Positions 49,467 through 54,494 of a stretch of DNA of 54,619 nucleotides are shown one piece after another. Within the stretch, counting starts at the first letter, position 1; each line of letters starts with the position of its first letter. The notes under the pieces were generated by a model. That model had not been told where the DNA came from, searched no databases, and saw only the letters and a program-made list of their open reading frames with translations. The translations under genes were made by a program, and so were the position numbers. The stretch covers positions 6,492 through 61,110 of the forward strand of contig PBJO01000003.1 of assembly GCA_002720745.1 (NCBI GenBank), written 5' to 3'. The stretch comes from Balneola sp. (GTDB lineage: Bacteria; Bacteroidota; Rhodothermia; Balneolales; Balneolaceae).

Positions 49467-50930
49467 TTGGATACGCCTAGTCAACGACAAACTCTACACA
49501 GCTTCCGGTGGTCGTTCATTGAGAAAGTAGGGAAGGTACTCTTTCAATTAGCTCAAATTGTATTATTGACTCGCTTTCTTGACAAAGATGATTTTGGGTT
49601 GGTGGCTCTTGCATTAGTGAGTATTGAATTTTCCTTTTTATTTGTTGACGCCGGTTTAAATGCTGCTATTTTATATATTCGAAAAGCTACACATAAAGCA
49701 CTTAGTAGTATTTATTGGCTCAGCATTACCATATCAATAGCTTTAGCTGCTTCGATTTGGTTTTTTAGTCCGGTCATTGCCAATTTCTACGAAGAGCCTG
49801 CATTGCTTCGCATACTCCCTATATTAGGGCTTAATATCATATTCTTAGCTATAGGTCGCCAACACAGAACATTTTTACAAAAACAATTTCTATTCAAGCC
49901 AATTGCACTTGTTGAAATAAGCGCATACCTGAGCTCACTTATATTGGCTATCTTTCTTGTACTTAAAGACTACGGAGTCTTCAGTCTTGTTTATTCTATC
50001 CTGTTTGCTTCTCTATTATCAAATATAAGCTATCTCTTTATTCGGCATAAACAAAATCCTATTCATTTACACTTTAAATGGTTAGAGGTAAAACCATTTT
50101 TTGAAATTGGTAAATTTCAAATGGCTGGTCGTTTATTAGATTTTGTATCGAAAGAAACCGACGTGTTAATCGTAGGCAAAATACTTGGCATGGAGGTACT
50201 AGGTTTATATAGCCTAACCAAACAACTCGTTGTACGCTTATATAATGTAATCAATCCCATCATTACCAACGTTTTAAGCCCGTGGCTTGCATCGCTACAG
50301 CAAAAACCTGAAAAACAACGAACTACCTATCTATTAATCACACGATATCTTGCATACTTAAATTTTCCAATATACTTAATCTTTGCCGTTGGATCTTATG
50401 AACTGCTCTATGTTATCTACGGACCAAGTTATGCATCGGGATCCCTTCTTTTATTTACCTTAGCCATATACTATGGGATTCTATCTATAACTAATCCAGT
50501 GGGTAGCTTACAAATAGCAACTGGTCGTACGGACATTGGCTTTTATTGGACATTATTCCGCGCATCAATCACTCCTGCCGCTTTACTTTTTGGCATCTAC
50601 TTTGGCGGAATACAAGGGGTGACTTATAGTTTATTAGCCCTTGCTTTTGGGTTATTGTATCCACTTTGGCGAGTACAAATTAAAATCATGATTAACATAT
50701 CATTTTCCAGATATTTCAAAGAATTTTATCGTCCATTATTTAGTTTTTTACTCTTGGGTGCTGGAATACATTACGGCGTAAAGCCATTACTTGAATCGCC
50801 TAATTTCCTAATAACAAGCTTATGCTTTGTTGTATCGGTCAGCTTACAAATTGGATTGGTTTATCTATATGATTTTAATGCTTTTTCGCGTCTCTACTCC
50901 CTTTTATTGAGACCCAGTAACCAAAAATAA
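49467..50930 (+). CDS. Polysaccharide flippase (MOP superfamily), second copy
   Basis: 487 residues with about 12-14 helices, from a TTG start. Blocks such as FSFLFVDAGLNAAILYIRKA, FYEEPALLRILPILGLN and TDVLIVGKILGMEVLGLYSLTKQL are typical of WzxC/MOP-type exporters that flip lipid-linked sugars. It is distinct from the flippase at 25.7 kb (the two share little obvious sequence). The asparagine-synthase-like gene starts 9 bp after its stop, so the two form an operon. Confidence 0.87.
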   Translation: MDTPSQRQTLHSFRWSFIEKVGKVLFQLAQIVLLTRFLDKDDFGLVALALVSIEFSFLFVDAGLNAAILYIRKATHKALSSIYWLSITISIALAASIWFFSPVIANFYEEPALLRILPILGLNIIFLAIGRQHRTFLQKQFLFKPIALVEISAYLSSLILAIFLVLKDYGVFSLVYSILFASLLSNISYLFIRHKQNPIHLHFKWLEVKPFFEIGKFQMAGRLLDFVSKETDVLIVGKILGMEVLGLYSLTKQLVVRLYNVINPIITNVLSPWLASLQQKPEKQRTTYLLITRYLAYLNFPIYLIFAVGSYELLYVIYGPSYASGSLLLFTLAIYYGILSITNPVGSLQIATGRTDIGFYWTLFRASITPAALLFGIYFGGIQGVTYSLLALAFGLLYPLWRVQIKIMINISFSRYFKEFYRPLFSFLLLGAGIHYGVKPLLESPNFLITSLCFVVSVSLQIGLVYLYDFNAFSRLYSLLLRPSNQK

Positions 50931-50939
50931 ATCAGAAAG

Positions 50940-52568
50940 TTGGCACATTCATTCTATTTACATCTTTCAGAGGCCACTGCTCGAGACAGTAGCTTAGAAC
51001 ATTTACATATTTCAGGATTTGTATTTGTTGAAAAAGGAAACCCTTCCAATGAATATTCGATGATTATAGAGGCCTTAGACAATTTTGGTATATATGCTCC
51101 GCTTCATCTAAGAGGTAGTTATGCAGGAATTTACTGGTCTTCCAAAAATAATCATTGGATCTTATTCAGTGATCCTTTAGGCACAAAACCATTATACTAC
51201 GCGCAACTATATGATGGCTGGCATATCTCCAATGACTACGATTTGCTTGCCCAAACAATAAAGACCATCCAACCCTTAACATTATCATCCTTAGGCTTCT
51301 ATCAGCTTCTGAACTTTGGATTTGTACTCGAAACCGACACCTTATTCAATCCTATCAAACGACTACCAATAGGCTATACTGGAACCATTGATACACTCGA
51401 AAATGAACAAAAACCTATACCAGGAAACACCCTGACTACCCATAAATATTATTCACTACCCGCCATTGGTACTTTCTTCTCTCTGGATGATGCTGCTGCG
51501 CATATGGATACACTATTTAGGGCAGCTATAAAAAGAGCCTTCAAACGCGACACTACCAAGGGAAAAATACCGCTAGTATCTCTCAGTGGCGGCCTTGATT
51601 CACGAATGACAAGCTGGGTTGCTCATGAAATGGGATATACTAATCAACTGAATCTCTGTTTTTCACAAAAAAACTCTTTAGATCATACCATTGCCTGCAA
51701 AATTGCTCAAGACTTAAAGCACATGTGGCATTTTATGCCCTTAGACGGTGGCCAAATGCTCCTGGATTTGGATGAAATTACACAAAACACTGGTGGAAAT
51801 GTGGTGTACTATGGACAGGCACATACCCGACGTATTTTGCATGAAATCATAGACAAAAAATATGATACGCCACTGGGAATGCTCCACACTGGAATGCTAG
51901 GAGATGTTGTAATTGGGAGTTATCTACGAACTACCGATAATCCAACAAATTATTCTGCTTTGAGTGGAGCTACTTCCACCCGCTTCGCTAAAGAACTACT
52001 TAACCATGGTTTCAAACCCGATTACCAAAACCTAGAGCATCATAAAATAATGCTGCGTGGCTTATATGGAATGAATATGGGGCTGATGTCGGTATATGCT
52101 GTAACCGAAAGTTTTTCACCCTTTTATGATTTTGATTTTTTTAATTTCTGCCTTCAACTCCCACTTAAACTACGAGCTGAGCATAAACTGTACATTCACT
52201 GGATAAACCACTACTACCCAAAAGCATCAAACTATATTTGGGAACGAACTCGAACAACTATAACGGCAAAATCACTACGATTAGGCTCAAAATCAATGCC
52301 ACTACGAACTTGGTTTTGGAAGCTTGCTGAAAAGATACAGTTTGGGGAGCCCACGCATAATCCCCGTCATATGACACCATTGGATTATTGGTTTGCAACT
52401 GAAACGAAGTTAAAATCTCATCTTAACAGCTATTTCAACAAGTACCTAGTCCTGATCGATAAACCAGAAATGAGAAATAATATTCACGAGCTATATACAA
52501 GTGGAAACGGAAATGAAAAAGTACAAGCCCTTACAGTCATTGCCGCCGCCAAAAGATATCTAAACTGA
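50940..52568 (+). CDS. Asparagine-synthase-like protein lacking the glutaminase cysteine
   Basis: 542 residues, TTG start. The N-terminal domain (1-150) resembles the glutaminase fold (HLRGSYAGIYW, FSDPLGTKPLYY, WHISNDYDLL) but has no N-terminal Cys: translation begins Met-Ala-His. The synthetase domain has the PPi loop LVSLSGGLDSRMTSWVA and later LGMLHTGMLGDVVIG and SFSPFYDFDFFNFCLQLPLKLR. The enzyme should adenylate a carboxylate and transfer an amine or ammonia, without using glutamine through its own N-domain. Its position behind a flippase suggests modification of a surface glycan, by inference. Confidence 0.82.
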   Translation: MAHSFYLHLSEATARDSSLEHLHISGFVFVEKGNPSNEYSMIIEALDNFGIYAPLHLRGSYAGIYWSSKNNHWILFSDPLGTKPLYYAQLYDGWHISNDYDLLAQTIKTIQPLTLSSLGFYQLLNFGFVLETDTLFNPIKRLPIGYTGTIDTLENEQKPIPGNTLTTHKYYSLPAIGTFFSLDDAAAHMDTLFRAAIKRAFKRDTTKGKIPLVSLSGGLDSRMTSWVAHEMGYTNQLNLCFSQKNSLDHTIACKIAQDLKHMWHFMPLDGGQMLLDLDEITQNTGGNVVYYGQAHTRRILHEIIDKKYDTPLGMLHTGMLGDVVIGSYLRTTDNPTNYSALSGATSTRFAKELLNHGFKPDYQNLEHHKIMLRGLYGMNMGLMSVYAVTESFSPFYDFDFFNFCLQLPLKLRAEHKLYIHWINHYYPKASNYIWERTRTTITAKSLRLGSKSMPLRTWFWKLAEKIQFGEPTHNPRHMTPLDYWFATETKLKSHLNSYFNKYLVLIDKPEMRNNIHELYTSGNGNEKVQALTVIAAAKRYLN

Positions 52569-52581
52569 GGACACGTAGACC

Positions 52582-53265
52582 ATGAATATAGAAGTTTGCT
52601 GCAATAGTTTGTACTCGATTCGAACTGCCGAACAATTAGGAGCTTCACGAGTTGAGCTGTGTCAAAATCTGTTAGAAGAGGGCATAACCCCTGACCTGGA
52701 ATTACTTAAAGAAGCTTGCCAAAAATTTCAGATACCGATTCATGTTCTAATACGTCCTAAAATTGGAGATTTCTTTTATTCTTCTTCCGACCTGAAACAT
52801 ATAGAGGAATCTATACAAAAAGCTCTTCAATTTCCCATAGCAGGGATTGTGGTTGGACACATGAATAAGAAAAACGGAGTCGATCCAGTCCTTCTACGCC
52901 ATTGGCGGGCCTTAACTCCAGGACTTGATCTTACTTTTCACCGAGCATTCGACCAGGCGGCAAAGCCTTTTAACGTATTAGAACAACTCATAGAAGCGGG
53001 TTTTAGCCGATTATTAAGCTCGGGGCAAGAAGGTAGCGCTGAGACTGGTATTCTTTTATTACAAGATCTGCAAAAAGTAGCAGGTAATTCTTTGGAAATA
53101 ATGCCAGGAGGCGGAATAAACGATAATAATGTGTCTCTTTTCATAGACGGTGGCTTCAAAAGTATTCACTTATCAGCAAAATCTAACAATAGTCCTGCTC
53201 ACTTAGAACCTGTTATTGACCCAACTATACTAGAGAATGTCATTGCGCTAAGCTCAAAAATGTAG
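52582..53265 (+). CDS. cutC: CutC-family protein
   Basis: 227 residues beginning IEVCCNSLYSIRTAEQLGASRVELC. Other typical CutC blocks are GITPDLELL, IHVLIRPKIGDFFYS, LTFHRAFDQ and LSSGQEGSAETGILLL, and PGGGINDNNV. CutC has a TIM-barrel fold and was named for copper homeostasis; its biochemical role remains unsettled. Located 13 bp after the asparagine-synthase-like gene on the same strand. Confidence 0.93.
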   Translation: MNIEVCCNSLYSIRTAEQLGASRVELCQNLLEEGITPDLELLKEACQKFQIPIHVLIRPKIGDFFYSSSDLKHIEESIQKALQFPIAGIVVGHMNKKNGVDPVLLRHWRALTPGLDLTFHRAFDQAAKPFNVLEQLIEAGFSRLLSSGQEGSAETGILLLQDLQKVAGNSLEIMPGGGINDNNVSLFIDGGFKSIHLSAKSNNSPAHLEPVIDPTILENVIALSSKM

Positions 53266-53331: not shown

Positions 53332-54240
53332 ATGACAAAAGTAGATTCCCTTTTTAATTTATTTTTTAATGACCAACTAAAAAAACGTCTCGAATCCTGG
53401 GTTATTATCATTGCTTCTGTTGGTTTTGTTGTTCATCTGGGTCTTATCTTACTAGTAAATACAAATGACATAGTAATACTTGCAGGCTTTGAAGATTATT
53501 TAGCAAACCCTATTTCTGCGGTTTATACTCCATTTTCGTTTATACTGATCTATGAAGTATATCTTCTTATCTATTATTTACCCAGATCTTTTGCCATTTC
53601 GATTGGGAAACAATTTGAAATTATTTCTTTAATACTCATCCGTCGCGTATTCAAAGATATTTCAAAAATCAACGTGCGTAGTGAAGTCCTCTTCCAAACT
53701 GAAAACTTAGCACTTTTATATGACATCCTAGGAATTTTAGTGCTCTTCACCCTTATCTTTGTATATCGATACTTTCTCATTAAACGTAAAGTACATAAGA
53801 CATCGGTATCACTCACCAAGTTTAGAGGCTATAAGAAGTTACTTTGTTTATTGTTAGTACCGATATTTATCGGTTTAGCTAGTGTTAGCTTTGTTAAATG
53901 GTCTGTAGATATATACCATATACTTATTTCCGGACAGCAAAAGCTAATGGACTTCAATACGGTATTTTACCATGAATTCTTTGATATTTTGATCATTGTT
54001 GATGTACTCATTTTAGTAGCATCTTTAAAATTCACAGATCGTTATAGTCTTATTATTCGAAACACTGGGTTTGTAATTACCACTGTACTACTTCGTGTAT
54101 CTTTTAATTATATCGGTTTAGAAAACGTAGTATTAATGATCGGTGCCGTACTATTTGGAGTATCTATTTTAGGTGTGCAACTACTGTATGACAAAATTGA
54201 CCTTGGCGATAGTACAAAAGAGAGTTATGGTTATATGTAA
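53332..54240 (+). CDS. Seven-helix membrane protein of unknown function
   Basis: 302 residues; I do not recognise a named family. Hydrophobic helices lie at about 22-42, 62-83, 127-150, 169-189, 212-232, 244-262 and 265-286. Between helices 2 and 3 a cytoplasmic-looking segment (residues 84-112) reads LPRSFAISIGKQFEIISL then ILIRRVFKDIS, a mix of basic and aromatic residues that looks conserved rather than random. A linker of about 18 basic residues follows helix 3 (KRKVHKTSVSLTKFRGYKK). No neighbour gives a functional hint; cutC is 66 bp upstream on the same strand. Confidence 0.7.
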   Translation: MTKVDSLFNLFFNDQLKKRLESWVIIIASVGFVVHLGLILLVNTNDIVILAGFEDYLANPISAVYTPFSFILIYEVYLLIYYLPRSFAISIGKQFEIISLILIRRVFKDISKINVRSEVLFQTENLALLYDILGILVLFTLIFVYRYFLIKRKVHKTSVSLTKFRGYKKLLCLLLVPIFIGLASVSFVKWSVDIYHILISGQQKLMDFNTVFYHEFFDILIIVDVLILVASLKFTDRYSLIIRNTGFVITTVLLRVSFNYIGLENVVLMIGAVLFGVSILGVQLLYDKIDLGDSTKESYGYM

Positions 54241-54410
54241 TCCTGTTTACCTATTCTATAATCACTTTATTTGCACAACTACCAGTGAAACGGCCAAGTT
54301 GAAATTACCTGTACATTTACCACTCTCAATACGTAAGAAACTATTTTTGGAATAAAAAAGAGCTGAAAAAAATAACTCATTGTTTTTCAACACTTAATAT
54401 TATTATCTAG

Positions 54411-54494
54411 TACGAGAGGGGGGACTCGAACCCCCACATCGATTAAGATACTAGATCCTAAATCTAGCGCGTCTACCAATTCCGCCACTCTCGC
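54411..54494 (-). tRNA. tRNA-Leu (anticodon TAG)
   Basis: An 84-nt class II tRNA on the reverse strand. Acceptor GCGAGAG pairs with CTCTCGT (first pair G-T), discriminator A; anticodon stem CTAGA/TCTAG with loop TTTAGGA; T arm GGGGG-TTCGAGT-CCCCC; a variable arm closing ATC with GAT. CCA is not encoded. Downstream (54350-54395, leftward) there is only a weak hairpin before a T-run. Confidence 0.95.

Follow-up and report, generated by a model that had tools for sequence, protein, structure and literature searches.

The locus in Balneola sp.

The window, i.e., the whole stretch of 54,619 nucleotides that was analysed, is part of contig 6 of a 2.17 Mb Balneola sp. genome. The last intact open reading frame at its end, here named X, lies between cutC and a tRNA-Leu gene and codes according to the ORF list and its translation for 302 amino acids with an ATG start. 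The following features are considered:

52582 to 53265, plus strand: cutC (PF03932), the upstream neighbour (ORF list, Pfam; common to the named contigs L015-L019)
53332 to 54240, plus strand: coding sequence of X, a predicted eight-helix membrane protein, group I of an undescribed family (ORF list, homologues, models)
53554 to 53556, plus strand: codon of E75 in helix 2 (model helix 60-82), invariant in 112/112 aligned homologues
53581 to 53658, plus strand: residues 84-109, the flagged segment, with S86, K93, Q94, E96, L100 and R104 kept (alignment, model)
53833 to 53835, plus strand: codon of K168, early in helix 5, invariant in 112/112 (alignment, model)
54001 to 54024, plus strand: residues 224-231 in helix 6, D224 and S231 each in 108/112 (alignment, model)
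54058 to 54096, plus strand: residues 243-255 in helix 7, R243 in 112/112, T251 in 109, R255 in 95 with K in 17 (alignment, model)
54410 to 54494, minus strand: tRNA-Leu(tag), downstream of X, a tRNA found on the opposite strand

A gap of 66 nt separates cutC from the start of X. A terminator-like site was not found after X, and promoter-like sites were at chance level. A conserved cutC-X operon was rejected: the arrangement was seen in L015-L019 only, the five nearest named relatives, which are Balneola or Balneolaceae MAGs with proteins 98-77 % identical to X. Upstream of cutC and X, at 49467-52568, are genes for a polysaccharide flippase and for an asparagine-synthase-like protein that includes a GATase_7 part; this gene order is common to L015-L018. 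The rhodopsin (C10:57925-58599) and blh of the host genome are located on contig 10, and a linkage to X was not seen. A mobile or viral nature of the gene was rejected as well: X in the window had no match to plasmids and phages, and the family profile none to viral contigs.

An undescribed protein family

Homologues of X were obtained with peptide seeds in 59 named contigs and by profile search in 94 of 394 Bacteroidota genomes, in 11/145 genomes from the archaeal phylum to which the Poseidoniaceae MAG L044 belongs and in 4/58 genomes from the phylum that includes the MAG L055, titled Pseudobacteriovorax. A FastTree phylogeny of 112 distinct sequences contained one long supported branch (support 1.0, length 1.45), which we call group II; group I comprises all sequences outside of it, including X of the window, and may be paraphyletic. 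From the 94 Bacteroidota genomes, G040 (broken by a stop codon), G071 (a short piece) as well as G302 and G369 (weak matches) were dropped, leaving 90 genomes, 23 with group I (at least 270 bits, plus G095, placed there by the tree) and 67 with group II. The relative in G040 (L014 / G040:C13:12923-13162) is ended early by the stop codon, and the one rhodopsin of this genome has a sodium-pump motif.

The family was not recognized by the databases. Pfam contained no family matching X of the window at E ≤ 10, NCBIfam a single row with E 8, scans of 49 and 45 homologues yielded scattered weak rows only, viral models gave no match at E ≤ 0.001, and no PDB sequence matched the family below E 0.6. 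Together with the structure searches reported below nothing coherent was obtained, and membership in a known family was rejected. Two statements of a sequence-only reading of this DNA, that X has no known domain and that it is a candidate for an undescribed membrane function, hold on the same results, and the reading frame is as intact as it had been taken to be. The microbial rhodopsin profile (PF01036) did not match X in the Pfam scan at E ≤ 10. Microbial rhodopsins have seven helices and bind retinal at a lysine in the last of them, and a rhodopsin identity was rejected on the eight long helices of the model and on the lysines: no lysine is conserved after K169, therefore none in the last two helices. 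The profile of the Blh/Brp beta-carotene dioxygenases (PF15461) did not match X either, while it does match the neighbouring blh genes. These dioxygenases have conserved iron-binding histidines. X has no invariant histidine, the sole one conserved above 70 % being H35 (80/112), and this identity was rejected too. PDB sequence, Foldseek and VIA-align searches revealed no transporter or channel that matched in fold or sequence. None of the tested families or folds fits X. A description of X was not found among the papers listed by literature searches, in which the family is not searchable by name; the supplementary tables of PMC5932025 with 43 orthologue groups may include it.

Structure model and conserved residues

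The AlphaFold2 model of X (pLDDT 83.7, pTM 0.83) has eight helices of at least 20 residues, one more than the seven of the sequence-only reading. A green sulfur bacterial homologue was modelled with eight matching helices and an additional N-terminal helix 10-33 (pLDDT 92.1, pTM 0.88); its N-terminal part may not all be real, since the sequence was taken from the preceding stop codon and the true start may differ. Judged by hydrophobicity, the helices of X probably span the membrane, and the loop charges suggest that both ends face the cytoplasm. With this topology, the cytoplasmic half would contain E75, K93, Q94, E96, D224 and R243, and K168 would be close to where helix 5 starts on the cytoplasmic side.

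The same reading had drawn attention to residues 84-112 as a basic, amphipathic linker under selection between helices 2 and 3. The motifs it named are present (PRS 84-86, GKQ 92-94, EII 96-98, IRR 103-105, FKD 107-109), and the segment is kept beyond chance in a set of 112 distinct homologues, the most divergent of which are 21 % identical to X of the window, so that the absence of conservation that would have spoken against the proposal was not observed. Conservation concerns single positions: S86 and R104 are invariant, K93, Q94 and L100 are present in 111 and E96 in 110 of the 112 sequences, whereas R85, R105 and D109 vary and P84 is kept in 92/112. PRS, IRR and FKD are therefore not conserved as written. 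The linker or loop was rejected: residues 87-110 form helix 3 in the model, the matching stretch 103-128 of the homologue is also a helix, and the near-invariant residues are K, Q, E and R. Nor is the segment unique in its conservation, which is equalled elsewhere by L72, E75, K168 and R243 (with S86 and R104 the invariant residues in 112/112) as well as D224 (108/112, E in the other four), S231 (108/112), T251 (109/112) and R255 (95/112, K in the other 17). The near-invariant charged residues are distributed over helices 2, 3, 5, 6 and 7. Because the peptide seed of the named-contig search itself contained GKQ, the counts were repeated on 59 sequences from the whole-genome searches, a set in which some Balneolaceae genomes were also matched by the seed search: E75, S86, R104, K168 and R243 were present in 59, K93 and Q94 in 58 and E96 in 57.

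E75, K93, Q94 and R104 on helices 2-3 correspond in their placement to D224, R243, N244 and R255 on helices 6-7, about 149 residues further on. In a hairpin-pairing score, the 12 best of 17205 pairings were all at an offset of 146-153, 11 of them beginning in the loop before helix 2. A comparison of the two halves by hhalign gave no significant repeat, and a duplication of four plus four helices around a central path is suggestive only. Foldseek searches of the PDB with both models gave no match at E ≤ 0.001. The best VIA-align rows were 4al0 (Human PS-1; Z 8.1, 123 residues, rmsd 4.1) in one search and 8tm9_B (a designed repeat protein; Z 8.7, 114 residues, rmsd 4.0) in the other, Z values that the tool assigns to its 'common arrangement' range. 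A missing fold match does not establish a new fold.

Occurrence with rhodopsin and Blh

There is a strong association of group I X with genomes that encode rhodopsin and the retinal-making Blh. Rhodopsin (PF01036) was detected in 60 and Blh (PF15461) in 58 of the 394 sampled Bacteroidota genomes, the latter in 57 above the cut-off. Among the Bacteroidota carriers of group I X, 22 of 23 had a rhodopsin compared to 60/394 overall (Fisher 4.8e-19), among the archaeal carriers 11 of 11 compared to 23/145 above the cut-off (Fisher 1.3e-10), in tests that, like the binomial test below, ignore shared ancestry. The Balneola sp. genome and the archaeal centre G427 had been sampled by choice; without them, the counts are 21/22 and 10/10. 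The rhodopsin of the archaeon G566 consists of two partial hits on two contigs, and the bacterial carrier without rhodopsin is G062. Counted from the genome tables, 16 of 17 genera with group I X have a rhodopsin. A role of X as substitute for Blh was rejected, as none of the 22 Bacteroidota genomes with both group I X and rhodopsin lacks blh. Of the 60 rhodopsin genomes, 29 contain no intact X, be it of group I or II, so X is optional for rhodopsin; within genus g69, rhodopsin occurs with X in G183 and G256 and without X in G119 and G375.

Fifty of the 59 named genomes were tested, and rhodopsin was found in 40, i.e., in 5/5 with group II and 35/45 with group I X, a weaker figure than that of the sampled genomes; the named ones had been selected for carrying X. 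Rhodopsin was not found in the group I genomes L022, L026, L027, L028, L029, L032, L042, L048, L052 and L061. The titles of L026-L029 and L032 read Bacteroidia, Bacteroidales or Proteiniphilum, and four of these five genomes lack a phytoene/squalene synthase; L042, L048 and L052 are archaeal MAGs. Apart from the five Bacteroidia, the rhodopsin-less named genomes may be incomplete MAGs.

Pump types were scored by the helix-C motifs of the rhodopsins. A proton-pump motif was present in 19/22 rhodopsin genomes with group I X and in 15/28 without X (p 0.017), the sodium-pump motif NDQ alone in 3/22 (G042, G341, G353) and 13/28, respectively; the nine genomes that combine rhodopsin with group II X were omitted, as was G286 (motif DTQ), and the stop-broken G040 was counted as without X. 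Within the Balneolaceae, the ratio of proton to sodium pumps was 6/2 with X and 2/8 without X (p 0.054). The test was devised after the data had been seen. Group I X leans to proton pumps, not as a rule, and co-occurs with sodium pumps too.

Gene neighbourhoods

In four of the 22 group I Bacteroidota genomes with both genes, X was located within 2 kb of blh (G018, G029, G222, G081), and the chance of at least four such linkages is 3.9e-7 in a binomial test if the genomes are independent. The gene orders differ: blh and rhodopsin followed by a divergent X in G018; X and blh followed by a convergent rhodopsin in G029; rhodopsin, blh and X in a row in G222, where the end of blh and the GTG start codon of X overlap; and X together with blh in G081, with a lycopene cyclase gene adjoining blh and a divergent rhodopsin. 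The loci belong to different families, except that G018 and G029 are of one family. A linkage of X and blh was not seen in the other 18 of these 22 genomes, including that of Balneola sp. The archaea presented one linkage in 11 genomes: in G566, a truncated blh (positions 127-264 of PF15461) and then an ABA4-like gene come after X, and a photolyase-like gene flanks X on the opposite side. This blh piece (L188:7843-8277, plus strand) covers the C-terminal half of Blh only and reflects either the decay or rearrangement of a retinal gene or a fault in the assembly. In total, blh directly adjoins X in four of the five linked loci, the rhodopsin gene being interposed in G018.

A clustering of 738 neighbouring genes at 91 loci grouped blh from five linked loci and rhodopsin from four; those five loci had been fetched on account of their linkage, and the clustering is not independent evidence. 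The fasciclin cluster covered six loci of three distant groups, and clusters of unrelated genes with three or four loci also crossed lineages. Fasciclin-domain genes are located near group I X in Bacteroidota and archaea at L033:7021-7533, L039:3-2504 and L120:10251-10769. A Pfam tally of 130 of the 138 neighbours at 42 group I loci counted BCD five times, Fasciclin four times, and DPRP, rhodopsin, response regulator and Por secretion tail three times each; L120-L123 and L188 had been included for their known linkage, hence the tally is not independent evidence, and without them BCD and rhodopsin disappeared and two Fasciclin counts were left.

Photolyase-related DPRP genes of one cluster were observed at most two genes from X at L020:8897-10447, L021:4657-6204 and in L043, in Saprospiraceae and a Poseidoniaceae MAG. 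In the archaeon G500, a 770-aa protein encoded two genes from X (L138:4115-6424, minus strand) combines a class II photolyase-like N-terminal part with an FAD oxidoreductase part resembling HpnE/carotenoid desaturases. A B12-binding MerR/HTH_17 regulator is encoded upstream of the G222 cluster.

Group II and green sulfur bacteria

Group II is mostly found in green sulfur bacteria, which live in dim anoxic layers. FMO (PF02327), the antenna protein of these bacteria, was detected in 78/316 Bacteroidota genomes; 43 of the 78 had an intact X and 35 lacked it. Counting as phototroph any genome with rhodopsin, with FMO or of an FMO-containing family, 85 of the 90 X genomes are phototrophs, 11 of the family-counted ones lying outside the FMO sample; the exceptions are G062, G065, G150, G156 and G237. 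Among the genomes with handles up to G353, assumed to be the 316-genome sample, phototrophs account for 68/73 X genomes compared to 127/316 overall. As most group II genomes come from one lineage, this evidence is weaker than that for group I. We know of no retinal pathway in green sulfur bacteria, and Blh was not recorded in their genomes among the matches listed.

The neighbours of group II X vary. In G175 a bchC-like gene (126 bits, below the cut-off of 291) is directly upstream. X of G237 comes after a cobW-type (UreG-like) gene and ureD (L178:4879-7592), a second copy in the Saprospiraceae genome G436 lies between hypA and a cobW-type gene (L187:5579-7969), and X of G150 is found in the company of genes for hydantoinase B and an NCS1-type permease as well as a short gene (L179:4683-8932); the nickel-enzyme neighbourhoods are single loci. 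An ABC-transporter ATPase gene is directly upstream of group II X at L171:5624-7564 and L173:6044-7917, in genomes that are presumably Salinibacter-like. The plasmid NZ_CP114768.1 (378 kb) of Hymenobacter canadensis carries a relative (L269:9809-10726) annotated as hypothetical protein, near CheB and PAS histidine kinase genes, which matches a green sulfur bacterial X with 41 % over 64 % of the latter.

Proposed role and alternative explanations

Rhodopsin phototrophy is usually described as a pump together with retinal and carotenoid synthesis, and why light helps some rhodopsin hosts and not others is an open question. Group I X is mostly present where a rhodopsin is present, while rhodopsin works without X, a pattern that fits an accessory acting on the ion gradient or on the pigment. 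With somewhat less than even confidence we propose that X serves light-driven energy metabolism as an accessory membrane protein, most likely as a conduit for ions or solutes next to the light-driven pumps. The conduit is the part that we infer, and it is the better guess because of the mirrored charges, the tendency towards proton pumps and the carriers that have no retinal (most of group II) or no carotenoid genes. X might act as a channel or secondary transporter alongside the pump, either passing a counter-ion that balances the charge moved or using the light-driven gradient. The path would be lined by E75 of helix 2 and K93, Q94 and E96 of helix 3, mirrored by D224 of helix 6 and R243 and N244 of helix 7; R104 and R255 would be positioned towards its other ends and K168 early in helix 5. 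A wider version we regard as unlikely: X could be a new membrane conduit in a general light-energy module of retinal phototrophs in Bacteria and Archaea and of chlorophyll phototrophs (the green sulfur bacteria), tuning the gradient by a duplicated four-helix unit with a mirrored charged path.

Pigment handling follows closely, because blh, lycopene cyclase, ABA4-like and bchC-like genes adjoin X, although we still consider it rather improbable. X might carry, store or convert retinal or a carotenoid produced by Blh and neighbouring enzymes, in green sulfur bacteria another polyene or a chlorophyll intermediate, and a Schiff base with retinal could form at K93 or K168. The direct contact with blh at four of the five linked loci, with an overlap in G222, the lycopene cyclase gene beside blh in G081, the ABA4-like gene after X and the blh piece in G566, the bchC-like gene in G175 and the occurrence with both proton and sodium pumps agree with this. 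It is less easily reconciled with the X-carrying green sulfur bacteria, which lack the retinal pathway as far as we know and are without Blh among the matches listed, with the four of five rhodopsin-less Bacteroidia without phytoene/squalene synthase, and with the many conserved charged residues, odd for a purely apolar ligand. As 29 of 60 rhodopsin genomes lack X, it is dispensable for making and loading retinal, which also counts against a pigment function.

We give only a small probability to X being a light- or UV-stress membrane protein of sunlit microbes, with habitat and a common control by light, rather than the pump, connecting it to rhodopsin. Left unexplained would be the overlap with blh in G222 and the presence in green sulfur bacteria, while the DPRP genes in L020, L021 and L043, the photolyase-like gene adjoining X in the archaeal L188 and that two genes off in L138, and the B12-binding regulator upstream of the G222 cluster are in line with it, as is the enrichment of photolyase genes in proteorhodopsin genomes described in the available parts of PMC5932025 and PMC2668756. 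Lower still we rate the explanation that X is a general membrane protein whose pattern arose from sampling, shared lineages and a few chance linkages. Carriers without rhodopsin or FMO exist (G062, G065, G150, G156, G237 and the five Bacteroidia), group II X is found by cobW-type and ureD, hypA and cobW-type, or hydantoinase B genes, Balneolaceae and green sulfur bacteria are heavily represented in the Bacteroidota sample, and unrelated neighbour clusters of three or four loci, with fasciclin even six, cross lineages; against it stand the rhodopsins in 16 of 17 group I genera plus a separate archaeal phylum, and linked loci that differ in gene order and come from different families.

If X is the proposed accessory, it would be a testable missing component of phototrophy that is optional, accompanies rhodopsin in bacteria as well as archaea and has green sulfur bacterial relatives. 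It may be an overlooked part of the light-harvesting machinery of bacteria and archaea. The distribution points to a function worth seeking in a protein family of no known kind.

Comparison with known systems

In its proposed role only, balancing light-driven charge movement, X resembles bestrophin-type channels such as the thylakoid VCCN1, which has this function. The bestrophin profile, presumably PF01062, did not match X of the window at E ≤ 10, and bestrophin was not among the Pfam families listed for 49 members (25 of 28) or 45 members (22 of 22). The one bestrophin title among the 50 Foldseek matches listed, the bacterial homologue 6iv2 in the ninth row for the second model (E 0.80, TM 0.15-0.17), was at chance level.

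A second parallel is DUF2237, according to the available text of PMC5932025 a domain without known function that is enriched in proteorhodopsin-bearing Flavobacteriia and common in photosystem-bearing prokaryotes. Like X, it is a gene of no known function shared by rhodopsin and chlorophyll phototrophs; it differs in that X had no DUF2237 match in Pfam and is a predicted eight-helix membrane protein.

A further comparison is with the rhodopsin-blh cassettes (PF01036 and PF15461). In the accessible part of their study, Woyke et al. 2009 (PMC2668756) reported only proteorhodopsin, blh and a photolyase-like gene as shared by six flavobacteria with proteorhodopsin and missing from 13 others, and Kumagai et al. 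2018 (PMC5932025), likewise as far as available, described the 43 orthologue groups as biased to proteorhodopsin genomes. X matches neither family of the cassette, is optional and is not mentioned in the accessible portions of these two papers; it shares with the cassettes that group I X is mostly found in the same genomes, within 2 kb of blh in four Bacteroidota and with the rhodopsin close by in all four.
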